Shown here in pieces: positions 32,846 to 54,272 of a DNA stretch of 64,000 nucleotides (position 1 is the first letter of the stretch; the number at the start of each line of letters is the position of its first letter). The notes beneath the pieces are model-generated. The model was not told the origin of the DNA. It did not search any database and saw only the letters and a program-made list of their open reading frames with translations. The stretch lies in the NCBI RefSeq assembly GCF_900142705.1, contig NZ_FRBV01000002.1, forward strand, positions 124,001-188,000, read 5' to 3'. The translations under genes were made by a program, and so were the position numbers. Source of the stretch: Nitrosospira sp. Nsp11. Its GTDB lineage: Bacteria > Pseudomonadota > Gammaproteobacteria > Burkholderiales > Nitrosomonadaceae.

Positions 32846-32886
32846 AGAAAAAGAACTGCAAATCTTTATTTTAAGGTTTGCAGTTC
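32846..32886 (-). terminator. Intrinsic terminator closing the propeller-SCO operon
   Basis: On the minus strand, a 14-bp stem (32873-32886 with 32853-32866, one mismatch, 6-base loop) is followed by TTTTTCTTT. It lies about 60 bases beyond the stop codon of the 208-residue secreted protein gene, so it is a well-placed rho-independent terminator for the operon read from 35818 down to 32944. Confidence 0.75.
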
Positions 32887-32943: not shown

Positions 32944-33570
32944 TCACTGACTTGATCGCAGCCGTTGTGGCGTGCAAAGTTTGTTGAGCAGGGTAACAGC
33001 GGAGAATATGTGGCGTCCATCGCGGCCTTTTCCTGCCTGATCGTATATCTCAGTGATCTCTACAATATTCCCTTGCATGTGTGCCTTGACCGTATAAGCA
33101 TCGAAACCAAAATCTTCACCAAAATTGACCCAGTCGACAGGCAGAACAAACTCTGCTCCATTGACTATGCGCTTGGCATTCAAATCTACAGGCACGGTAT
33201 TTCCACGCGACATTTCCAATGCCTGGGGCAATACCGCGCTGTCATGCTGCAGCACGCTTTCATACATTAGAACCTTATCGCCATCTTCTTGATTTATCGG
33301 AATGAGGAAACCATAAGTTTTCACATTCAGTATACGCAGCAGGAGGTGATCCCCAGCTTCCCCATTTGTCCGTTCTCCCCTGGTCTTGACTTGAAACACG
33401 AGATGATTATCCGCGGAAATATCGGTTGCCACGGATAGAATGTCGAGCTCCGGAGAAAGCGATTTATCCATGAACGATACGATGACACGGGGATCGGCAT
33501 CGATCTGCATCGCAGATGCGGTGAGAGAGACGATTATCAGCATTGGAATGAGTACGACAGGCCAAATCAT
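32944..33570 (-). CDS. Secreted protein of unknown function, SCO-linked
   Basis: A 208-residue protein with an N-terminal signal peptide (~1-20, VLIPMLIIVSLTASAMQ). The mature part looks beta-rich and soluble, with alternating hydrophobic residues (for example LVFQVKTRGERTNGEAG and LLLRILNVKTYGFLIPINQE) suggestive of an immunoglobulin-like or beta-sandwich domain. I do not recognise a family. Its start overlaps the stop of the SCO gene by four bases, so the two are translationally coupled. A single Cys near the C-terminus (NKLCTPQ) is too little for a redox role. As third gene of the propeller operon it is presumably a periplasmic partner. Confidence 0.7.
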   Translation of the reverse strand: MIWPVVLIPMLIIVSLTASAMQIDADPRVIVSFMDKSLSPELDILSVATDISADNHLVFQVKTRGERTNGEAGDHLLLRILNVKTYGFLIPINQEDGDKVLMYESVLQHDSAVLPQALEMSRGNTVPVDLNAKRIVNGAEFVLPVDWVNFGEDFGFDAYTVKAHMQGNIVEITEIYDQAGKGRDGRHIFSAVTLLNKLCTPQRLRSSQ

Positions 33571-34187
33571 GACTCGAACAGGGCCTTATTCTCACGAAAT
33601 ATCTGCTCCATTTGAGCTGCATCCTTCAGCGCATCAAATATCACCCTGATATTTCCTCTGGAGTCGATTAGAAATGCGGTAGTACTATGATCTACCTGAT
33701 AATTCTGCATATTTCCTGAATTTTTTGTGTAAAAAGCGGTCTCGACGCTGAAAGCGGCCTTGAACTGCTCCAGCGCTTCACCTTCAAAACGCAAATAGGC
33801 AAGATCCGACCCGAAGGCTTTGATGTAGCGTGAAAGAATAGCGTTAGTATCCCTGTCTGGGTCCACCGTGACGAAGATTCCGTTCAGCTTGATCTTCTCA
33901 GCCGCGGCTGCATTGACGAGCATGGATAGATTGGCGAGAGACGTTGGGCAGACATCCTTGCAATGCGTAAAACCGAAAACAACCAGTTGCCACGGCGTAT
34001 CCTTGTCCGCCTGTGCTTGTTTCAGTTGACCGATGATTTCCGGTCGCAAGGGTATCGGAGAGGTTGGAATGACAGTCGCGGCTTCGATGCCGGCGTGGGC
34101 AAACAGGAGAAATGCTGTCAGCACAGCCGGAAAATAACGCTTCAGGAATGCCCTTGGTTGGATTTCTTTTATATATTTCAGTTTCAT
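33567..34187 (-). CDS. SCO1/SenC-family copper chaperone-like thioredoxin protein
   Basis: A 206-residue SCO-family protein with an N-terminal TM anchor or signal (~18-36). The copper-binding motif is FTHCKDVCPTS (Cys76, Cys80), with the third ligand His167 in QVDHSTTAFL. VTVDPDRDT is the conserved SCO loop. SCO proteins deliver copper to oxidase CuA sites or act as thiol reductants. No oxidase subunit is adjacent; instead it sits between a beta-propeller gene and an unknown secreted protein, so its client may be the propeller. It overlaps the downstream gene by four bases. Confidence 0.92.
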   Translation of the reverse strand: MKLKYIKEIQPRAFLKRYFPAVLTAFLLFAHAGIEAATVIPTSPIPLRPEIIGQLKQAQADKDTPWQLVVFGFTHCKDVCPTSLANLSMLVNAAAAEKIKLNGIFVTVDPDRDTNAILSRYIKAFGSDLAYLRFEGEALEQFKAAFSVETAFYTKNSGNMQNYQVDHSTTAFLIDSRGNIRVIFDALKDAAQMEQIFRENKALFES

Positions 34188-34223
34188 ATCAATTCGCGAT
34201 TATCTTGGTTGCGATCAGAAGGG

Positions 34224-34272
34224 GGCTCATCTTGTTCAGCCCAGGATAAATCCCGGGAAAAAAAGATGAGCC
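34224..34272 (-). promoter_or_regulatory. Nested hairpin between propeller and SCO genes
   Basis: Outer arms 34224-34233 and 34263-34272 pair perfectly (10 bp). Between them an inner ~8-bp imperfect stem (CCCAGGAT with ATCCCGGG) can form. It sits in the 110-base gap after the propeller stop codon and before the SCO start. It may be an mRNA-processing or partial termination element that sets the ratio of the two products. Confidence 0.55.
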
Positions 34273-34297
34273 GAGTATAAAGCGGGATAACCGGAAA

Positions 34298-35818
34298 TTA
34301 GCGAAGGCCTCCTGCGGCAAATATGCCGTGTGGCTTCACCAGACCGTCACTCGGTCCCCAAACCTTGGTGACGGTATCAGTTTCTGTATCAATCTTCAGC
34401 ACATAGCCCGAAACCCAGCTTGCCACCAGCAAATGTCGATGGTCTGGCGTTGGGCTGATCGTGTGGGCGACGGCGTATCCCTTCGGTAGTTCAAAGCCGG
34501 GTCGAAGCCGCTTGATGAACCGCGGTTTTTCTCGATCGGTTAAATCGAACACAGAAATGTAACCATCGTTTCCGAACGTGTAATCAAGAGTATCTTCCTC
34601 TGCGATATAGAGTTTTCCATTCACCACCGCAATATCGGATGCAGAACGAAACACGCCATGACCATTCGCATGATTGGTGTACTTGACTATTTCCTTTGCG
34701 GTTCCCTCCTGAGTATCAAGCAGCCACACGCTAGGCGGAATGATATCTTTCGTGGTTGAAGGAGTCAGGGAAGTTTTGTCCAGTTGCATGGAAGCGGTGA
34801 CAGCGTAGCGCTCATCCAGCCAGTAGACGAAATGGGTGAAAGCCGCATGCTTTTTCTCGTTGCCCAGCATGATCTGACCTACCGTCTGCAGTTCACCGGT
34901 TTCCCTGTTGGGTCTGTATATATCGATGATGCTATTGTCAAAAAAGTATCCTGTCCCAAGACCAATGGTTCCAGACCTGTTGAAATTTACCCCATGCGTC
35001 TGCTCGGTGTAGCCAGGTATGACGATAGGATCAAAACTCACAAACTCGTTCGTTTTGTAATTGATCACACGTATCCTGTCCGACGTAAATTCCGTAAAGT
35101 AGAGGAAATCGGAGTAGGGGAGCAGCGTGGGACCATGAATCTGGGTTCCCCTGCCTATCAGCCAGTTGGGAATGGCTTGGACCTTGTTGACTGGTGTGAC
35201 AAATGGCAACTCGGAGGGATTATTTGGGGAATCAGCTGCCAAAACCGCATTCACGGTTAACGAGGCCAAGCGTGTATCCCAATTGATCTCGTTCACGCTC
35301 AATGCGATGATATAGGAGGGATGGTCCTTCGTATTGTCGGAAGTGATATAAATCCTCTTCCCTTCGGGCATCACGACTGTGTGCTGCAAGGGAACGTTTC
35401 CAGGCCAACCGGGGAGCGTGGTCGGGTCTATGATTATCAACTTGTCGTTTTCGTAGTTGAAGAGATAGATCATTCCGTTGTGGTAGTCGATTGCGGTGGC
35501 GACGGGCTGTATTTGATCGTTATAAACATCAGGATGTTGACCGAGCGACAATGATTTCGGGCCATTTTTTCCGCGCCGGTGGTCACGTCCCTTATCCGCG
35601 TAATCGTCATCGTCGGCAAACACTTTGCCATTTTTTTCACGCAGACTGTCGACCCTTGTCCGCATCTTGCCGGCGTTGGTGCTCGAAAGGTCATTGCTTG
35701 GTGAATTGCCTTCTTTTAAGGGAGAGGTATGATCTGTTGCTTGGATTTCGCCGACCGATAGTGTCAATATGCATGAAGCTACCAGTGGAGCTAGAAATAT
35801 TTTTTTTTTTGAAGTCAT
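34298..35818 (-). CDS. Secreted seven-bladed beta-propeller protein, possible metal centre
   Basis: A 506-residue exported protein: signal peptide ~1-27, a charged linker (50-90, with ADDDDYADKGRDHRRGKNG), then repeating beta-strand blades from ~100 to 506. I see one histidine at the same type of position near the start of a hydrophobic strand in seven places: His146, 228 (IHGPT), 275 (THGVN), 324 or 329, 387 (GHGVF), 452 (AHTISP) and 497 (PHGIF). One His per blade could line the central channel, as the copper-site histidines of nitrous oxide reductase do. No cupredoxin domain or CXXCH is present. The following gene is a SCO copper chaperone. A plain YVTN/NHL-type propeller with a structural or carbohydrate role remains possible. 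The family is not recognised. Confidence 0.75.
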   Translation of the reverse strand: MTSKKKIFLAPLVASCILTLSVGEIQATDHTSPLKEGNSPSNDLSSTNAGKMRTRVDSLREKNGKVFADDDDYADKGRDHRRGKNGPKSLSLGQHPDVYNDQIQPVATAIDYHNGMIYLFNYENDKLIIIDPTTLPGWPGNVPLQHTVVMPEGKRIYITSDNTKDHPSYIIALSVNEINWDTRLASLTVNAVLAADSPNNPSELPFVTPVNKVQAIPNWLIGRGTQIHGPTLLPYSDFLYFTEFTSDRIRVINYKTNEFVSFDPIVIPGYTEQTHGVNFNRSGTIGLGTGYFFDNSIIDIYRPNRETGELQTVGQIMLGNEKKHAAFTHFVYWLDERYAVTASMQLDKTSLTPSTTKDIIPPSVWLLDTQEGTAKEIVKYTNHANGHGVFRSASDIAVVNGKLYIAEEDTLDYTFGNDGYISVFDLTDREKPRFIKRLRPGFELPKGYAVAHTISPTPDHRHLLVASWVSGYVLKIDTETDTVTKVWGPSDGLVKPHGIFAAGGLR

Positions 35819-37228: not shown

Positions 37229-37369
37229 ATGCAGAAATTGGTATCCCCCACAATTTGCGAACTTATTGATGTTCAGCCTCCACATTTTGCCTTCAACGAT
37301 CTGACAGAGCTGAGTACTGTTTTCGTCAGAGATGCTTCTAACACCGAGCGGCAAGCTTGCCATGGGTAA
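37229..37369 (+). CDS. Possible 46-residue leader ORF upstream of the autotransporter
   Basis: An ATG at 37229 with AAGGA nine bases upstream opens a 46-residue frame (begins MQKLVSPTICELIDVQPPHF) that ends at TAA 37367-37369, eight bases past the autotransporter ATG at 37362. No domain is seen. The overlap could couple translation of the two, or it may be chance or the decayed end of an older gene. Confidence 0.25.
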   Translation: MQKLVSPTICELIDVQPPHFAFNDLTELSTVFVRDASNTERQACHG

Positions 37370-40300
37370 GAAATTTTTAGCGGTTGATAAATGCCAACCT
37401 GGCGCCAGGTTGGCAGCGGATCACAACGACTTGAAGAACCCTGTTCTATTAATTGCGGCAATCCTGGCAATGTTCGGTTCGGTGTACTCCCGCATTGCAT
37501 TTGCAGTTAACGAATGCGGCGTTATAGCTAGTCCCACGGCGCCCGCGACAATTCACTGTGATGGGCCCACTTATTCGCAAACTATAGAATACCGCCCTCA
37601 AACCGACCTTAACCTTATTGTCGCGCCGGATGTCGCGATTACGCCCCCTACGGATACATTTGGAATAGCAGTATGGGGGCCAGACGCAGGCAATCCGGCC
37701 GTAAACATTGACGTCAATGTTGAAGCAGCCACCATTACCACCAATGGTATCAGCGGTGATGGAATCGTGGTTCAGCAGGGGACATCTGGCGATCTCTCTA
37801 TTACAACTAGCGGCGTCAATATAACGACGAGTCATGGCACTAGCCCCGACGATGCTACAAGTACCGGAATTACCGGTGCTATCGATACTGCCGATGCTAC
37901 AGGAGATATCTCGATCAATGTCATGGGCGGTAATATCACGACTACTGGCGATACTTCCTACGGAGTGTATGCTGTTCATTTTGGACAAGGCGATGCCAAA
38001 ATAGTCACATCCTCAACGATTCTTACTAAGGGCTATAACACGGATGGGACAGATTCAGTAATTTTCAACAACGCGTCCACGGGCACGGCTTCGATTACTC
38101 AAACGGGCGGTACTATTACGACGGAAGGTGAAATTTCCTCCGGTCTATATGCTATCAGTCTCGGTACCGGCAATGTCAGCGCTGCGGCAGCCGGGACGAT
38201 CATAACCAGTGGAGCCGGTTCTAGCGGCATCAGCGTTCGTAGCAATAATGGGGCGGATACCTCACGAGCCACAGTTGATGTGGGAAGCACGGCGCTTATC
38301 CGCACTTCAGGGTCTGACGCGGCGGGCATATTCGCAAGTTCCAAGAACACCTCTCTTTCGGTCGTTGAGGTCATCACACAAGGCGATATCCAGACGACGG
38401 GAACAGGCAGTCACGGAATTTACGGTGAGGCTCTAACTATCGGAAACACCAATTCCGTTCGCCTCGTGCAAGACGTTGGTGGCAATATTGAAACTACCGG
38501 GGACAATAGCCAAGGCATGTATGCGAAGCATGATGGCGAAGGAAGTATTGACATGGAAAATGCTGCCGCCATCTCAACAAAAGGCGCCAACGCTAACGGC
38601 ATTAATGCGGTAATGACAAAAACCGACAATACAGCATCGATCTCCGTGATGCTACAGTCAGGTGCTATCAGTACTGAGGGCGACGGTTCCTCCGGCGTAT
38701 CACTTGTTAACCAAGGCATGGGCTTGACTATAGTTAATGGAATCGGTGGCGCAACCATTGACACTTATGGTGTCCAGAGTCACGGCATTGCATCACAGTC
38801 CAGGGCGGGGGGTGTCGATTTTCAGTTGGAGTCGATAACCATATCAACGCAGGGCGCAGAGGCAATTGGGATTCTGGTGTCTCCAATTATTGCTGGGGCG
38901 CCGACTTCAGCCGCAGTAACATCCGGTAAAATCACCACGAGAGGCGATGCCGCGCATGGCATTGTTGTCGGTGCCATCAATGAAGGCGCAGACACCACGG
39001 TCTTCGATACGACGAATGTGAATATCAAAGGATCTGTCACCACCAGCGGTCCGAACTCACTCGGTCTTGTGGCGGTTGCCGCGAACAGCACAACAGTGAA
39101 CGTGAACGCCGATGTGACTGCGACAGGTCGATTCGGTGCAGGCATGCTGGCCTCAAGCACAAGTGGTTCTACGAATATAGTTGTTGCGCAGGGGGCTACA
39201 GTCTTCGGGGGGTGGCAAGAACTGAGCAATGGCTCGTCCACTCAACGATTTGATACGCCGTCTGCAGGGGTTGTTCTGGGTGGCACGACAACGTTCCTGA
39301 CTAATCGTGGAAATATCGGGGCCTTGTCCGACCGGGCAATTGCAGCATCCGGCATATTTGCTCCGGTAGATGGCGACGTCACAATCGACAACTATGGCAC
39401 CATAACGGGTTATCTTTCCTTAACAGGCACCGGTTCCAATACCTTCAATAATTATTCGCCCAACTCTTTTGTAATGCGTCACTTCGCAGACGCTGATGGT
39501 GATGGCATACGTGACACGAAGCGAGTGGCGATAAGCGATTTTGGCGGGCCAAACTCCGTTTTCAACAACACCGTCGCTGGTGCTGTACGCTTTGCAGATG
39601 TGACGAACGCGGCATTTACGGATGACAGCGGCTTCTATCAACCAAAAACAGGTATTTCAGAGCAAATACTGGACCCGGTTTTCTATGATTTACATCGTAA
39701 CGGTGTCGTTCAAAGCCAGTTGGTCAATCTCTCTACATTCAACCATGCTGGCGTAATCGATTTGCGTGGTCCCGCGGTTGGTAACACCCTTGTCATCACC
39801 GATATATCCGATCCAAATTCAGGCGTGGGTACAAGCACGTTCGTCTCTGATGGCGGTCGGCTACTGCTTAACGCCAGGCTTGGCGCCGGCCCCGCTTCTG
39901 GCGGCACAACTGGATCAGAGGCCGACATGTTGATCGTCGACCGGACGCAGCGTGGATCTGGCGCCACGCAAGTCTATGTTTCTCAGGCCCCAGGTAGTTT
40001 GGGCGCGCCGACCGTTGCAAACGGTATTCAGCTAGTGGAAGTACGGGATGCAACGCACTCGGCGGACAGTGTATTCGTATTGGGGCAGCGAGTAGCAGGA
40101 GGCGCTTATGAATATGAACTCCGAAAAGGAGGTTCAGGCTTGGATGCCACTGACGGAAACTGGTACTTGCGCAGCGTTATCGAGAAAGATCCGACGACGC
40201 CGTCGTCACCCGCTATTCCCAATTATCGCCCTGAAGTACCAATTAATATGGCACTTCCGGCCCTAGGCACCCGGCTAGGATTATCAATGTTGGGAACTTA

Positions 40301-41222
40301 TCATGATCGGCAGGGACAGGACAGTCTCGTATCGTTCGGCGCTGATGCAGGAGGTCTCGGACCCAAGGCCTCCTGGGGGCGCATTATCGGCGAGCATGGT
40401 TCAGCAAGACCTGGTGGTGGCAATATTGAACAGTTCGAGAAATATGGTCCCGCCTATAAATTTAATTATGGCGGCTTCCAGGTAGGTGTCGATACTTACC
40501 GTGGTCAATCCAATAACGGCAAGAACTCTGACCAGGCTGGGCTTTATTTGGGTGTAGGGTATATTAATGCCAGTATTAGTGACTTTCGCGGTCATCGAGC
40601 AGGAAGTGCAACGATGGCCGGATATTCGGTTGGTGCGTACTGGACGCGAATTGTAAACTCAGGCAGTTACCTCGATACGGTGGGCCAATTTACCTATTAC
40701 GGAGAAGCCACAACGCGTTCCCGTTTGGGAGAGTCGTCCAAAACCAATGGTTGGGGATTTATAGCGTCAACAGAAGGTGGTCATGCTTTTAGCCTGGGCA
40801 GTAATTGGACACTCGAACCGCAAGCGCAAGTGTTGCTTCAACACATGGATCTTCGAGACACCGCAGATACTTTTGGAAAAATTCAGTTTGGCGACACCAC
40901 CAATGTGTCCGGTCGCTTAGGTGCTCGCTCGACCAAGCAATGGCAATCCAGAAGCGGACGACTTATCACCACATGGGCACGCGCCAATATATGGCAGACT
41001 TTTGGTTCACGAGCCAACACTACTTTCAGCAATTTGAACGGTGAAAATCCAGTAGCCTTGCACACGGCCCTGGGCGGCACAGTGGGTCAAGCCGGCGTAG
41101 GTATTTCCGGCGAGATAGCCAAGAACGCCTACATATTTGTTACGGCCAACTATAGCCATGCGTTGGTTAGGAATAATGGCAATAGCATCGCTGGACAAGC
41201 AGGAATTAAATACCGCTGGTAG
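37362..41222 (+). CDS. Large autotransporter (type Va) with repetitive passenger domain
   Basis: A 1286-residue type V secretion protein. The signal peptide is extended (basic N-region, hydrophobic core LLIAAILAMFGSVYS, cut near AFAVNECG). The passenger (~50-950) is beta-helix-like with at least 14 degenerate T-x-G-x-x-[SA]-x-G-hydrophobic units, for example TTGDTSYGVYA, TEGDGSSGVSL and TRGDAAHGIVV. One DADGDGIRD motif near residue 710 looks like a calcium-binding loop. The C-terminal ~280 residues form the 12-strand beta-barrel, ending in the aromatic YRW required for outer-membrane assembly. It is likely a surface adhesin. The start at 37362 was chosen for signal-peptide fit; an in-frame ATG at 37332 is possible. 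Confidence 0.9.
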   Translation: MGKKFLAVDKCQPGARLAADHNDLKNPVLLIAAILAMFGSVYSRIAFAVNECGVIASPTAPATIHCDGPTYSQTIEYRPQTDLNLIVAPDVAITPPTDTFGIAVWGPDAGNPAVNIDVNVEAATITTNGISGDGIVVQQGTSGDLSITTSGVNITTSHGTSPDDATSTGITGAIDTADATGDISINVMGGNITTTGDTSYGVYAVHFGQGDAKIVTSSTILTKGYNTDGTDSVIFNNASTGTASITQTGGTITTEGEISSGLYAISLGTGNVSAAAAGTIITSGAGSSGISVRSNNGADTSRATVDVGSTALIRTSGSDAAGIFASSKNTSLSVVEVITQGDIQTTGTGSHGIYGEALTIGNTNSVRLVQDVGGNIETTGDNSQGMYAKHDGEGSIDMENAAAISTKGANANGINAVMTKTDNTASISVMLQSGAISTEGDGSSGVSLVNQGMGLTIVNGIGGATIDTYGVQSHGIASQSRAGGVDFQLESITISTQGAEAIGILVSPIIAGAPTSAAVTSGKITTRGDAAHGIVVGAINEGADTTVFDTTNVNIKGSVTTSGPNSLGLVAVAANSTTVNVNADVTATGRFGAGMLASSTSGSTNIVVAQGATVFGGWQELSNGSSTQRFDTPSAGVVLGGTTTFLTNRGNIGALSDRAIAASGIFAPVDGDVTIDNYGTITGYLSLTGTGSNTFNNYSPNSFVMRHFADADGDGIRDTKRVAISDFGGPNSVFNNTVAGAVRFADVTNAAFTDDSGFYQPKTGISEQILDPVFYDLHRNGVVQSQLVNLSTFNHAGVIDLRGPAVGNTLVITDISDPNSGVGTSTFVSDGGRLLLNARLGAGPASGGTTGSEADMLIVDRTQRGSGATQVYVSQAPGSLGAPTVANGIQLVEVRDATHSADSVFVLGQRVAGGAYEYELRKGGSGLDATDGNWYLRSVIEKDPTTPSSPAIPNYRPEVPINMALPALGTRLGLSMLGTYHDRQGQDSLVSFGADAGGLGPKASWGRIIGEHGSARPGGGNIEQFEKYGPAYKFNYGGFQVGVDTYRGQSNNGKNSDQAGLYLGVGYINASISDFRGHRAGSATMAGYSVGAYWTRIVNSGSYLDTVGQFTYYGEATTRSRLGESSKTNGWGFIASTEGGHAFSLGSNWTLEPQAQVLLQHMDLRDTADTFGKIQFGDTTNVSGRLGARSTKQWQSRSGRLITTWARANIWQTFGSRANTTFSNLNGENPVALHTALGGTVGQAGVGISGEIAKNAYIFVTANYSHALVRNNGNSIAGQAGIKYRW

Positions 41223-49188: not shown

Positions 49189-51198
49189 TTATGTCTTGAC
49201 TAGCTTCTTGAGAATATCTGCCAGAACGACTGGCAAGAATTGGGGGTGTTGCAGCACGGCGTAGTGTCCAGGACCAAATATACCAGCAAGATATTGAGGC
49301 GCATGTCGATCGACAGTGAGACAAAATGGATGCACTGACTGCAGCGTGGCTTCAGCCACGGCTCGCCTCATGTCTTCCACACCATAGGGGCCTTCATATA
49401 GATCGACATCGTTCGGTTTGCCATCGGATAATAAAATAAGTAAACGATGCAAGGCAGGGCGAGCGACGAGCAAGCTCGTTGTATGCCGAATAGCTGCGCC
49501 TGCGCGCGTATAGCGTTGAGGTTCCAGTCCGGCAATGCGGCGGTGTATGAGATTATTATCGCTTTCGTCGAAATCCTTTACAGGCCACAATGTCACGTTT
49601 TGCGCACTTTCGCCAGAAAACGCCAGGATGCAAAATGGATCGCTCAAGGCCATCAGCGCGTAGTTGACCAGCAGCAGTGCTTCCTTTTCGACATCGATGA
49701 TGCGCAAATCACCAGAAACCCAGCCATCTGTCGAGCCACTTATATCAATCAGCAATGCGATGGCGATATCACGTCGCGCAGGCCTTACGGATTGGTATAG
49801 GCGATCTTCCAGCGGTAACCCCATGTGTTGCTCGGCAAAGGCGTTCACGTAAGCGCTAATGTCGAGATCAGGGCCGTCTGCTTGGCGGTTTTGTCGGATA
49901 CGGCGCGGCCGCATGCCCTCGAAGCGGCGCCGGACCTGCTGCAGCAAGCCATAGCGCTTGGCCAGCACGGATTCAACCCATGCCGGGTCGCCGAGCGGCG
50001 ACGCCTGGAGCCGTACCACTGCACCCCGTTCCCGATAGCCTGGAATGCGGAAATCCCACTCGGGATATGAGATGCCTGCCCCAGCGGCTGTCAAACCCGG
50101 GGGTAGCACAGCTCGCTGGGCAGGGGGATCATCTGAAAGCAACACTTCCAGTGCCGGTCTGGGGTTAGAGATGAGGCATGCTTCGGGCAACTCGGAAAGC
50201 GAATCGGCGATATCACCCGCGTCTGCGTTCTCATCCCGGTCAGTAGGGCGCTGCATGCCCGCCGGGTCTTCCACGTGTTGCTGTGGATCATCCATTTGCA
50301 GCATCCACATGCCCTGCACGGCATCATCTTCATCCTCGCTTTTTTTCCGTACTTCGGGACGGCGTGACAGTCGCGCAGTACGCGGAGTTTGTGCGGGCGC
50401 ATCGGGCATATTTGCAGCATCGAGCTGCTTCTGATGCGCTGCGGCCACAGGTAGAGTCCTGCCAAGCCACAGGTCACTGCGCATGCCGCGATAGCGTATC
50501 TTCCCTGAATCGCACATCGCTGAGACTCCCCGCGCTGTTTCAATCGCCCAGGTTAGTGAATCTTTCGCGGCGGCTGCGGTGATATACGGAGAAGGAATAA
50601 GTGCCGGGTGAGCATTAAGCGCTTGACAATAAAAATCTTCAATTACGCGTTCGGGCGCGTTCAATAATGCGGGTTGCAACCGTTCCGACAACATGGCATG
50701 GCGCAGCGACAGAAGATCGTGCGTGAACCCGGGGAAATCGAGAGCGAGCATATGGTCGACCGCTAGCGCTTCGCTTAAATAAAACAAATCCTCTGCCAGC
50801 GCACTCGGCATCGCATCACCGAAAACAGCCCGTCGTTGCGCCCGCCCGGCCTGTTGCAGCGCGAGGACGCGGAACAGTTGCAGTGGAGCGGGCGACGCAA
50901 GCTGCGCCGGCAGGAAGATTTGTGCGCCGTCATTAGCAGGCAGCGCACGGGGCTCAACCATATGTCGAGGCCTGTTTCGAAACAGGCGAGACAATGCGGA
51001 TACGGGTGCGGGTTCCTGAGCAACATTAACACGAATGTCATAACCATGCACGGCCGCGAGCAGCAACTCCAGACGTTGCTTGTGTGCAGCAAGCGTGCAG
51101 GCATTATCCTGGCCCTGATTCGGGCGAGACCATAGGCGCGAAACAAATACGGTTGCGTGACGCGCGGCATCAATGATGATTTCTTCAGGTTCTGCCAT
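49189..51198 (-). CDS. norD: Nitric oxide reductase activation protein NorD (VWA domain)
   Basis: A 669-residue NorD-type protein with a C-terminal von Willebrand A domain, MIDAS motif DISGS in ALLIDISGSTDGWVSG. The N-terminal half is mostly helical. NorD works with the AAA+ ATPase NorQ to activate or insert cofactors into the NorCB complex. It is the last gene of norCBQD; a 35-base gap separates it from norQ. Its length is within the NorD range (about 610-680 residues). Confidence 0.93.
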   Translation of the reverse strand: MAEPEEIIIDAARHATVFVSRLWSRPNQGQDNACTLAAHKQRLELLLAAVHGYDIRVNVAQEPAPVSALSRLFRNRPRHMVEPRALPANDGAQIFLPAQLASPAPLQLFRVLALQQAGRAQRRAVFGDAMPSALAEDLFYLSEALAVDHMLALDFPGFTHDLLSLRHAMLSERLQPALLNAPERVIEDFYCQALNAHPALIPSPYITAAAAKDSLTWAIETARGVSAMCDSGKIRYRGMRSDLWLGRTLPVAAAHQKQLDAANMPDAPAQTPRTARLSRRPEVRKKSEDEDDAVQGMWMLQMDDPQQHVEDPAGMQRPTDRDENADAGDIADSLSELPEACLISNPRPALEVLLSDDPPAQRAVLPPGLTAAGAGISYPEWDFRIPGYRERGAVVRLQASPLGDPAWVESVLAKRYGLLQQVRRRFEGMRPRRIRQNRQADGPDLDISAYVNAFAEQHMGLPLEDRLYQSVRPARRDIAIALLIDISGSTDGWVSGDLRIIDVEKEALLLVNYALMALSDPFCILAFSGESAQNVTLWPVKDFDESDNNLIHRRIAGLEPQRYTRAGAAIRHTTSLLVARPALHRLLILLSDGKPNDVDLYEGPYGVEDMRRAVAEATLQSVHPFCLTVDRHAPQYLAGIFGPGHYAVLQHPQFLPVVLADILKKLVKT

Positions 51199-51233
51199 GA
51201 TGAATCGTCAAGAATGGTCAGTTGATGAGCAAG

Positions 51234-52079
51234 CTAATCCACTAGCACCGCGTCGATCAGGTCGTGCATGGCTGCGATCAGGTTGGGATCATCCGAGAGT
51301 GGGGAAACGAGCCCGACATTGCATGCCAATCGCGGGGGGATACCGTTGGCGATCAGGCGCGCGGTCGCAACCAGCAAGCGCGAGCTCGGCACTTCAGCGA
51401 GGCCCCGATCAGCCAGACCGCGGATTCGGCCGGCAAGCGCTACCAGATCATGCGCCAATCCCTGTTCTACGCCGCTTTCATGAATAATAATTTCGACCTC
51501 CCTGTCAGGCGAAGGGAAGTCGAAATCCAGCGCAACAAATCGTTGACGCGTACTTGGCTTCAGATCTTTTGACACGTGTTGATACCCGGGATTGTAAGAG
51601 ATTACCAGCTGGAATCCTGGCGCAGCTTCAACTAACTCTCCGGTTTTATCGATGGGCAGCACACGGCGGTAATCGGTTAGGGGGTGGATGACAACAACCG
51701 CGTCCTGTCTTGCTTCGACAACTTCATCCAGGTAACAGATCGCCCCTATTCGCACTGCTCGCGAAAGCGGTCCATCCTGCCATACGGTACCGTTGTCACG
51801 TATCAGAAAACGCCCGACCAGATCCGCCGCCGATAGATCGTCATGGCATGACACGGTTACAAGTGGCCGTTTGAGGCGCCATGCCATATGCTCGATAAAA
51901 CGTGTCTTGCCGCATCCCGTAGGACCCTTCAGCATTACCGCCAGGCTTCGCTGGTGACATTGGGTGAATACGTCGATTTCGTGGCCGAATGGCAGGTAAT
52001 AGGGCGCCTCGTCGCCGGGGTACCGGACGCCTTGATGCTCGCTTCCAGGATCACTGCTTTTGATTGACGAGCCCTCCAT
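51234..52079 (-). CDS. norQ: MoxR-type AAA+ ATPase NorQ
   Basis: A 281-residue AAA+ protein of the CbbQ/NorQ/GvpN group. Walker A is GPTGCGKT (residues 52-59), Walker B near GAICYLDEVVEA, and the C-terminal SRLLVATARLIANG belongs to the lid. With NorD it activates nitric oxide reductase, probably by inserting non-heme iron in NorB. The start overlaps the 3' end of norB by about 29 bases. Confidence 0.94.
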   Translation of the reverse strand: MEGSSIKSSDPGSEHQGVRYPGDEAPYYLPFGHEIDVFTQCHQRSLAVMLKGPTGCGKTRFIEHMAWRLKRPLVTVSCHDDLSAADLVGRFLIRDNGTVWQDGPLSRAVRIGAICYLDEVVEARQDAVVVIHPLTDYRRVLPIDKTGELVEAAPGFQLVISYNPGYQHVSKDLKPSTRQRFVALDFDFPSPDREVEIIIHESGVEQGLAHDLVALAGRIRGLADRGLAEVPSSRLLVATARLIANGIPPRLACNVGLVSPLSDDPNLIAAMHDLIDAVLVD

Positions 52080-53445
52080 CGTCCATGCCGGGTATTATGC
52101 GGTGTTGCGGAGCCACCAACACGTCAGCGGCCAATTTGGGTGGCGTCCGGAAAAAATTCCATATAAAAAGGCCGGCACCGACAGCAAATACGGACGCTGT
52201 TGCAAGCAGCATCAAAAAATGCACCTGAAGTTTGAGTTGCGTGTCCAGATAGCCCAAGCCTAAAATCCGCTCGAGATACACCTGACCGATGCCGGCTGTG
52301 CCGAAAGAGAGCGTCATGCCGAACATTCCCATTACCTGCATCCAGAATGCCCAGTAGCCAACGCTCGAGCCCTCCACTTTGCGATTAACCGTGAGATTCG
52401 GTAGCGCGTAGGTGATTATCGCCATGACGATCATGGCATAAGCGCCGTAAAAAGCGCCATGCCCGTGCATTGCCGTTACCAATGTGCCGTGTGTCCATTT
52501 GTTCACGCTGGGCCAAGTGTGGGCGAAGCCAAGCAGACCGGCGCCAAATACCGTAAATACCGCGCTGCCTATTGTCCAGTGCACTGCCAGCGAATTGGGG
52601 TGCGAAAGCCCCGAGCGGCGCATCGCGAAATATGCATACATTGCCATCCCGAGCAGAGCCAGGGGTTCCAATGCGCTGAAGAAGCCGCCGATAGGGAGCC
52701 AATACTGCGGAACCCCGACCCAATAGTAATGGTGGGCAGTACCCAGTATGCCAGCCAGGAAAACCAGTCCGACGATGACGTACAGCCATTTTTCCATTAC
52801 TTCACGATCGGCGCCGGACAAACGGATAAGGAGGTAGGCAAGAAGCCCGCCCTGTATCATTTCCCATACGCCTTCCACCCAGAGATGGATGGTCCACCAG
52901 CGGTAGAAAATGCTTACGGTGTAATTATCGTATTCAAGAAGTGCGGGTAAATATAACAACGCCGCCAATACAAGGCCCGCGACCAGCACGCCTTCTGTGA
53001 CAGTCCAGCGTCCGGCTTGCTTGATGGTCATCAAAATGTTGTATAGGAACATCAGCATGACAACGACAATCACGATTTTCAGCGGGAAAGGCTGCTCAAG
53101 CATTTTGTTGCCGGCGGTCCATCCAAACATATATCCCACGATGGCCGTCACACCCATTAATGTCCACGTGACCAGTTGCGCATATGCCAGCTTCACGCTG
53201 TAGATTTCACTGCGCGATTCTTCCGGCACCACATAGTACGTTGCCCCCATGAAGCCGGTCAGCACCCATACGATCAGTAGATTCGTATGGATGGCCTTGG
53301 TTTTGTCGAAGGGGAGGAAATCCAGTAGCGGGTCGGGTCCAAGATATTTGGTCGCACTCAGGAGTCCGAATACCAGTTGCAGACCGAACAGGCACATGGC
53401 AACGGCAAAATACCAATACGCAATAGACTGTGAGCGGTAACGCAT
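52051..53445 (-). CDS. norB: Nitric oxide reductase large subunit NorB
   Basis: The catalytic subunit of cNOR that reduces 2 NO to N2O in the membrane. At 464 residues it has 12 TM helices and the heme-copper-oxidase-like fold. Histidine ligands are seen in KAIHTNLLIVWVLTG, WWTIHLWVEGVWEMIQ, GTAHHYYWVGVPQYW, and HGTLVTAMHGHGAFYGA. The conserved glutamates lie in LWVEGVWE. It lacks the N-terminal extension of quinol-dependent qNOR, consistent with a NorC partner just upstream (8 bases apart). Confidence 0.97.
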   Translation of the reverse strand: MRYRSQSIAYWYFAVAMCLFGLQLVFGLLSATKYLGPDPLLDFLPFDKTKAIHTNLLIVWVLTGFMGATYYVVPEESRSEIYSVKLAYAQLVTWTLMGVTAIVGYMFGWTAGNKMLEQPFPLKIVIVVVMLMFLYNILMTIKQAGRWTVTEGVLVAGLVLAALLYLPALLEYDNYTVSIFYRWWTIHLWVEGVWEMIQGGLLAYLLIRLSGADREVMEKWLYVIVGLVFLAGILGTAHHYYWVGVPQYWLPIGGFFSALEPLALLGMAMYAYFAMRRSGLSHPNSLAVHWTIGSAVFTVFGAGLLGFAHTWPSVNKWTHGTLVTAMHGHGAFYGAYAMIVMAIITYALPNLTVNRKVEGSSVGYWAFWMQVMGMFGMTLSFGTAGIGQVYLERILGLGYLDTQLKLQVHFLMLLATASVFAVGAGLFIWNFFRTPPKLAADVLVAPQHRIIPGMDDGGLVNQKQ

Positions 53446-53453
53446 AGCGCCTC

Positions 53454-54272
53454 CTATTTCAAGGTTTCCATATAAGCAACAAGGCTGTCTATTTGCTCCG
53501 TATCGAGATCGGTAGCGAAATTGTCGGGCATGAAAGACTGTTTATTAGCGGAATACATCGGCCCCGGGACCAGGTATGCGCTCGGATGGGTAATGGATTC
53601 CCGAATGTAGTCAGCAGGTGTCTTGGCGGACCCCCGGTAGTCGGGGGAGGCAATAATGGCTGCGGCACGCGCTCCAATTCCTGCGAGCGTTGGCCCGGCC
53701 AGGTTCGCACCGGGTGCAACTGAATGGCAGGCATTACATGCTGGTGGCGCCGAACGGAACAGCGCCTCTCCGCGCGCGACCGGGTCTGACGATACCGACG
53801 CCTGAATCGCCGGTTGCCCGATGTCCGTGTCGGGGATCGTTGTGCCGGAGACGATGATCGGACGGGGTGGCCAGCCCTGGTTGTCTATATGGCTGACCCA
53901 ATCCAGAAACGCGATCACATCGCTGATTTCCGCATCCTTCAGGTTAGGGTTCGGCATCAGGCGCCTGTGCTGTTCTTCAGAGTAAAACTGGGAGGGGTCC
54001 TTGAGGAAAGCAGTCAGGTAAGGCGTGCCGCGCTGCTGCGTAATTTTCGTGAGGTCCGGCGCGTAGTAGGCTCCCTCGCCAAGTAGCGTATGACAGTTGA
54101 TGCAGTTGTTCGCATGCCAAATGTCTTTTCCGCTTATGACTGCGGGTGTAAGCTTTTCTTCATTGGTGAGTTCAGCAAAACGGGTATGGGTGTCGATGGT
54201 TAAGCCAATAAACACCGCGGCTGAAAGAAAAGTGCAAACAATGAAAAAAAGTCGTCCCTGTCGTTTTGTCAT
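53454..54272 (-). CDS. norC: Nitric oxide reductase cytochrome c subunit NorC, diheme
   Basis: A membrane-anchored cytochrome c (TM at ~8-27) that feeds electrons to NorB. At 272 residues it is much longer than the usual ~150. The extra length is a second cytochrome c domain: the first heme site is CINCH (Cys57-His61) with GEGAYYAPDL, the typical NorC segment; the second is CNACH (Cys179-His183) with a later Met in FMPDNF. So NorC is fused to a second class I cytochrome c, which may take electrons from a soluble donor. The ribosome-binding site AAGGAACCGGGA precedes the ATG. Confidence 0.95.
   Translation of the reverse strand: MTKRQGRLFFIVCTFLSAAVFIGLTIDTHTRFAELTNEEKLTPAVISGKDIWHANNCINCHTLLGEGAYYAPDLTKITQQRGTPYLTAFLKDPSQFYSEEQHRRLMPNPNLKDAEISDVIAFLDWVSHIDNQGWPPRPIIVSGTTIPDTDIGQPAIQASVSSDPVARGEALFRSAPPACNACHSVAPGANLAGPTLAGIGARAAAIIASPDYRGSAKTPADYIRESITHPSAYLVPGPMYSANKQSFMPDNFATDLDTEQIDSLVAYMETLK

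Follow-up and report, generated by a model that had tools for sequence, protein, structure and literature searches.

Organization of the Operon

The DNA considered here is a stretch of 64,000 nucleotides from Nitrosospira sp. Nsp11 (contig NZ_FRBV01000002.1, positions 124,001 to 188,000 of the forward strand; hereafter the window, numbered from its first letter), belonging to a 3.2 Mb genome of the ammonia-oxidiser family. It contains a minus-strand operon of three open reading frames (ORFs) of 506, 206 and 208 amino acids, spanning 35818-32944, which probably encodes a periplasmic copper beta-propeller oxidoreductase together with its own assembly or partner proteins. The operon consists of the following features:

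34298..35818, minus strand: propeller gene, 506 amino acids, with six invariant histidines, Asp395 and Arg506; N-terminal export signal recognised by eye, no twin arginine
34188..34297, minus strand: gap of 110 bases between the propeller and SCO genes, the place of a porin-like gene in two relatives
33567..34187, minus strand: SCO1/SenC-type copper chaperone gene, 206 amino acids, with Cys76, Cys80 and His167
32944..33570, minus strand: third gene, 208 amino acids, with a signal peptide recognised by eye; predicted beta-sandwich, possibly DOMON-like; its start lies within the SCO stop
32848..32886, minus strand: intrinsic terminator with the stem GAACTGCAAA/TTTGCAGTTC, then a T-run

The initial annotation, made from the letters of the window, had described three minus-strand genes, the last two overlapping by four bases, with an intrinsic terminator at their end, and both descriptions hold. 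The overlap of the SCO and third genes is ATGA at 33567-33570, and the terminator hairpin folds at -16 kcal/mol (z -4.65), with none of 200 shuffles equally good. The terminator pattern was matched once in the window and in none of 100 shuffles, while a first scan, which allowed loops of 3-8 bases only, gave no match at 32848-32886.

Conserved Residues and Predicted Structure of the Propeller

The AlphaFold model of the first gene product, computed with 15 sequences, is a propeller (mean predicted local distance difference test score, pLDDT, 73.3; predicted template modelling score 0.75), with pLDDT below 50 at residues 1-98 and 410-413. Conservation was counted over 35 non-redundant homologues, obtained from 49 matches in the fetched loci by removing copies identical over their final 150 residues as well as sequences shorter than 300 amino acids; this set includes the copies of Moorena and of a Burkholderiaceae metagenome-assembled genome (MAG), at 37-43% identity (Moorena 43% over the best segment, the MAG 38%). 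The nearest named relatives of the propeller in a pattern scan of genome contigs are Nitrosovibrio Nv6 and Nv4, with 88-89% protein identity, and a same-genus genome (L021) carries a copy of 98% identity.

The invariant histidines are exactly six, namely 146, 228, 275, 329, 452 and 497 (35/35), and Asp395 and the C-terminal Arg506 are equally invariant. The earlier proposal of one histidine per blade, with 324/329 and 387 completing the list, was thus right in that all the named residues are present and six of the seven blade positions hold an invariant histidine, but His387 is kept in only 8/35 and His324 in 29/35 of the homologues, and the seventh position is taken by Asp395, at the matching place of the blade that lacks a histidine in the blade listing. 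The six histidines and Asp395 occupy the same register of the blade repeat and lie, according to DSSP, at the strands beginning at 144, 226, 277, 328, 393, 452 and 496, each no more than two residues from the start; by this shared register, the seven residues would converge in the central channel of the modelled propeller. All 35 homologues have Gln or Glu at position 145, so that no adjacent histidine pair is formed, and a further copy (G108, 42% identity), which stands outside the 35, has the same residues by eye. Such conservation over seven blade positions supports a putative metal site, one that differs from that of NosZ, in which the CuZ ligand set consists of seven histidines.

The SCO Protein and the Third Protein

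The second gene product matches PF02630 (E 2.8e-30; 105.5 bits against a cut-off of 22.8), and its Cys76, Cys80 (CxxxC) and distal His167, correctly named in the initial annotation, are invariant in 30/30 non-redundant SCO proteins, the count being confined to operon SCOs, with L055, L058, L059 and L060 left out. Three other SCO homologues are encoded in the genome, all members of PF02630 with 26-34% identity to the operon copy, and their genes adjoin those of a UbiA-family prenyltransferase, a Caa3_CtaG protein and a COX1-family protein, respectively. Because of these three further genes, the operon SCO looks like an extra one, dedicated to one client, and it is this dedication that suggests copper as the metal. 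The idea of a metal-loaded propeller with its own chaperone, advanced when the operon was first annotated, is strengthened by the conserved His/Asp set and the dedicated-looking SCO, but the likeness to the seven histidines of NosZ on which it drew did not stand, and copper itself would follow from the SCO only by implication. An identification of the operon with norSY-senC-orf1 of ammonia oxidisers, which likewise includes a SCO-type gene, was rejected, as the SCO of the window sits with the propeller, whereas a different one (L116) stands beside the COX1-family gene.

Neither Pfam nor NCBIfam models matched the third protein at E 1 or better, and Foldseek gave it no match at E 0.001 or better. 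It is predicted as a beta-sandwich (mean pLDDT 77.3), with the gamma subunit of ethylbenzene dehydrogenase (2ivf_C) as the best structure match (Z 8.2, root-mean-square deviation (rmsd) 4.1, 142 aligned residues); a DOMON-like identity is only hinted at by this, the score being level with that of an antibody fold (Z 8.1). In gene neighbourhood, it is a conserved partner of the propeller.

Distribution and Gene Linkage

The propeller profile matches 41/125 Nitrosomonadaceae genomes, or 38/99 among the good ones. Because the occurrence among ammonia oxidisers is so patchy, the propeller is accessory, a universal role in ammonia oxidation being excluded, and on the same counts a core role in this process, such as a nitric oxide (NO)-oxidising step, was rejected as the general one. 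Two of the matching genomes, G010 and G011, contain short stop-riddled relics only, which suggest loss in some lineages; with these dropped, 39 genomes have a substantial propeller gene.

The third-gene profile matches 36/125 genomes of the family, all 36 being among the 41 propeller-positive ones, and none of the 84 propeller-negative genomes. On the same contig and within 3 kb of the propeller, the third gene is found in 34/39 genomes; the five others are G103, G108, G046 (the contig ends after SCO), G053 (at a contig edge, a fragment standing on a different contig) and G059 (the third gene lies on another contig). A SCO gene stands near the propeller in 33 of the 36 genomes examined, a count that leaves out G061, G059 and G057, with G103, G108 and G053 (contig edge) as the exceptions, and the synteny with SCO, which had been named as a check on the first interpretation, is in this way borne out in relatives.

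In the samples searched beyond the family, the propeller occurs only rarely. Among 369 genomes of the class, only two short matches were found besides G000 and G075, and among 398 genomes of the phylum none besides these two; in 388 genomes of the class of one Moorena genome and in 245 genomes of the family of the MAG, the propeller occurs in that Moorena genome and in that MAG only. With the pattern scan of genome contigs, a search that detects close relatives, 14 propeller loci were obtained, comprising 11 of ammonia oxidisers, two of Moorena and one of the MAG. The operon is also carried by N. europaea ATCC 25978 (L007). Plasmid carriage was rejected, the plasmid collection having given no match. 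No description of the operon in ammonia oxidisers was recognised in the literature searched.

Moorena and the MAG both encode a third-gene-like protein at most about 4 kb away from the propeller, and, as it aligns at 16-22% identity, the pairing of the two genes there is offered only as a suggestion. These proteins from outside the ammonia oxidisers (L013 10897-11649, L015 4169-4885) have an insert with HPDFDDTPL and an HxH motif, which the third proteins of ammonia oxidisers lack. In one Moorena locus (L013 4288-7092), the propeller forms the C-terminal portion of a 934-amino-acid protein in which CHRD, dockerin-like and weak Ig-like matches are also found and the gene of which adjoins an AurF-family gene.

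Proposed Function and Its Alternatives

The preferred interpretation can be put as a sequence of steps. The propeller would be exported via a Sec-type signal, an apparent route judged by eye from the N-termini, in which the canonical twin-arginine motif is found in 0/33 propellers (two contain an RR pair); with Sec export, the loading of metal would occur in the periplasm, where SCO works, and the linked SCO would deliver copper to the propeller there. Each blade would contribute one residue, at the beginning of its inner strand, to a ring of six His and one Asp, which may encircle one mouth of the central channel and bind a small cluster of copper; the invariant Arg506, close by, would help to bind an anionic substrate. 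The reaction would probably be the oxidation of a small compound of sulfur or nitrogen, the electrons of which might pass to a periplasmic cytochrome c, as in thiocyanate dehydrogenase (TcDH), perhaps via the third exported protein, which may assist either in assembly or in electron exit. More tentatively, and with rather less confidence than the copper oxidoreductase as such, the operon may represent a new class of copper enzymes, in which an exported six-His/one-Asp propeller cluster, matured by its own SCO and an exported partner, would provide some ammonia oxidisers with an additional step in the periplasm, one that oxidises nitrogen or sulfur (or handles NO) and feeds cytochrome c. If true, a further copper-propeller family that has a dedicated copper chaperone and occurs mostly in ammonia oxidisers would indicate a reaction in the periplasm of nitrifiers that has so far gone unrecognised, and the apparent Sec export with the linked SCO would open the loading of a propeller with copper in this compartment to testing.

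Several observations weigh against the copper-propeller interpretation. For seven blades, DSSP gives eight candidate inner strands (106, 144, 226, 277, 328, 393, 452 and 496), and, as DSSP alone does not decide among them, the placing of His497 on the inner or the outer strand of the closing blade is the least certain of the seven. The closing blade of the model must comprise both strand 106-130 and strand 496-501, of which the latter was taken as the inner one, given that the structure alignments begin at about 103-104 and that TcDH likewise has active-site residues at its C-terminus (His528 and Arg544 in the available text of PMC6504805). The top structural match is the generic propeller 1l0q (Z 31.9), and therefore the fold alone is no evidence for copper. 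Nor is a single blade histidine rare by the control, in which histidine stood at -5 in 3/14 and at -6 in 1/14 repeats of four generic propeller ORFs with duplicates removed, 14 repeats being too few for more than a hint. No SCO or third-gene match was found near the propeller in the near-complete G103 and in G108 with its divergent copy (11-14 kb fetched), no SCO match in the fetched propeller flanks of Moorena and the Burkholderiaceae MAG, and neither Cys nor His is conserved in the third protein. It also counts against copper that the sequence searches, with shallow profiles for NosZ and SBP56, linked the propeller to none of NosZ, SBP56 and TcDH.

The same His/Asp ring might hold another metal or cofactor (zinc, calcium, iron or a haem-type cofactor), with SCO acting as a thiol-disulfide redox protein or a sensor and not as a copper donor, which we regard as unlikely. 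Consistent with such a role are a weak, sub-cut-off thioredoxin-like match of the SCO protein (E 0.035), the presence of the haem d1 propellers NirN, NirF and cd1 among the Foldseek matches of the propeller, and the fact that another senC, in N. europaea, is called a NO/low-oxygen sensor in the available text of PMC6967387; the invariance of all three metal-ligand residues of SCO argues against it, however, as does the absence of cysteine, needed by a client of thiol redox, from the conserved positions of the propeller.

It is rather unlikely that the propeller is a non-enzymatic periplasmic protein (for binding, as a scaffold or as a sensor), with channel histidines that bind a ligand or stray metal and a SCO serving general copper handling. 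The best structural scores do belong to generic YVTN and lactonase-type propellers, YncE-type proteins are among the sequence matches, and the YVTN repeat model matches the propeller (P0001) at E 3.5e-8, but for general duties the three further SCO genes exist, the invariance of seven equivalent blade positions and Arg506 would be unusual in a plain scaffold, and a generic YVTN propeller found by the profile (L046) has, by eye, no histidine at the blade register.

Comparison with Known Copper Propellers

To our knowledge, copper in the channel is a feature of only a few propeller enzymes, namely NosZ, TcDH and methanethiol oxidase (MTO), each of them having a part in nitrogen or sulfur cycling. 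By structure, the modelled propeller matches SBP56 (2ece; Z 28.2, rmsd 3.4, 340 aligned residues, reaching model residue 506), TcDH (8q9x, Z 27.7, 321 aligned, and 5f75_C, Z 26.6, 320 aligned; rmsd 2.7, with 320-322 aligned over the TcDH matches) and NosZ (5i5j; Z 27.5, rmsd 3.4, 306 aligned, reaching model residue 503), with generic propellers scoring alike or higher. By sequence, no Pfam family matches it at E 1 or better, cupredoxin, nos_propeller PF18764 and PF05694 included, and a PDB search with its profile gave 13 matches at E up to 10, among them no TcDH, NosZ or SBP56. Kinship to NosZ or SBP56 at the sequence level was also rejected by hhalign, global and local, which gave probabilities of at most 0.9% for NosZ and below 6% for SBP56, with shallow target profiles of 4-7 sequences.

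NosZ resembles the protein of the window in its propeller and in the histidines at blade starts (by eye), and differs from it in the seven-histidine set in place of six His and Asp, in the cupredoxin CuA domain and in the twin-arginine signal; a retrieved NosZ has an adjacent histidine pair, and the motif SRRDFL is likewise seen in one. The judgement of the initial annotation that the protein is not NosZ, drawn from the missing cupredoxin domain, is confirmed by the lack of domain matches and of profile similarity.

For TcDH, the available text of PMC6504805 lists the active-site residues Lys103, His135, His136, Gln156, His206, Glu288, Asp314, His381, His437, His482, His528, Asp529 and Arg544, and describes export by twin-arginine translocation (Tat) and Cop or Cus genes at the TcDH loci. 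The propeller of the window is matched over the whole domain (model 103-506 on 94-544 of 5f75_C), the end of the aligned range pairing Arg506 with residue 544, and a mixed His/carboxylate site would be common to both proteins. Unlike the listed site, it has no counterpart of the His135-His136 pair, its carboxylate lies elsewhere in the residue order, no Tat-type signal is present, and SCO stands where Cop or Cus genes are described.

The published precedent for a propeller with SCO is given by the mtoX operons, which hold SCO1/SenC and mauG genes (PMC5739008, in its available text), and it was counted in favour of the copper-propeller reading. MtoX belongs with SBP56 (PF05694); as described in the accessible portions of PMC5739008 and PMC10362175, the MTO has a His-His motif (His89-His90), and, by the latter, SELENBP1 is a copper thiol oxidase. 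The propeller of the window, in contrast, has no PF05694 match, no similarity to the shallow SBP56 profiles and no His-His motif, and where mauG is named for the mtoX operons, the available text mentions nothing that corresponds to the third gene. In 7 fetched loci, L001 not being among them, there are ORFs that carry two CxxCH motifs, with a dnaJ-like gene nearby, by eye, in those inspected. A second, distant group of SBP56-like propellers exists in the class (L057-L063, about 150-170 bits to PF05694); SCO matches were found in L058, L059 and L060, and L057 looks to hold a SCO-di-haem fusion.

The mnxG operon of Pseudomonas putida GB-1 contains, according to the available text of PMC11409713, a YVTN propeller gene adjoining two SCO1/SenC genes, and is unlike the operon of the window in having the Mn oxidase gene mnxG at its head and in including a cytochrome c-domain gene; this likeness is one of description only. 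The propeller seems to share the logic of these known parallels and stands, by its sequence, outside NosZ, SBP56 and TcDH. That it is itself a divergent TcDH or MTO, as the similar mixed site, the same fold through the last residue and the SCO neighbour of mtoX operons might suggest, is quite improbable in view of the missing double-histidine motif (with Gln/Glu at 145, against the pairs described for TcDH and MTO and seen in a retrieved NosZ), the lack of sequence similarity in the PDB profile search and in hhalign with its shallow profiles, and the absence, by eye, of the twin-arginine signal which TcDH is described as having.

Neighbouring Genes

Porin-like ORFs occur in or near the propeller operon of relatives (L005 7541-8860, L074 6021-7295, L075 4136-5482, L008 9246-10592, L010 11903-13264), the L005 copy having a weak, sub-cut-off match to the NCBIfam model porin_ExtI and the remaining copies being similar by eye. 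Upstream of the operon in the window, on the opposite strand, 37332-41222 encodes a 1296-amino-acid autotransporter with a PF03797 beta-domain. A minus-strand cluster at 49189-54272 includes a COX1-family protein at 52051-53445 and, from the sizes of its genes, is perhaps an NO reductase cluster, norCBQD.

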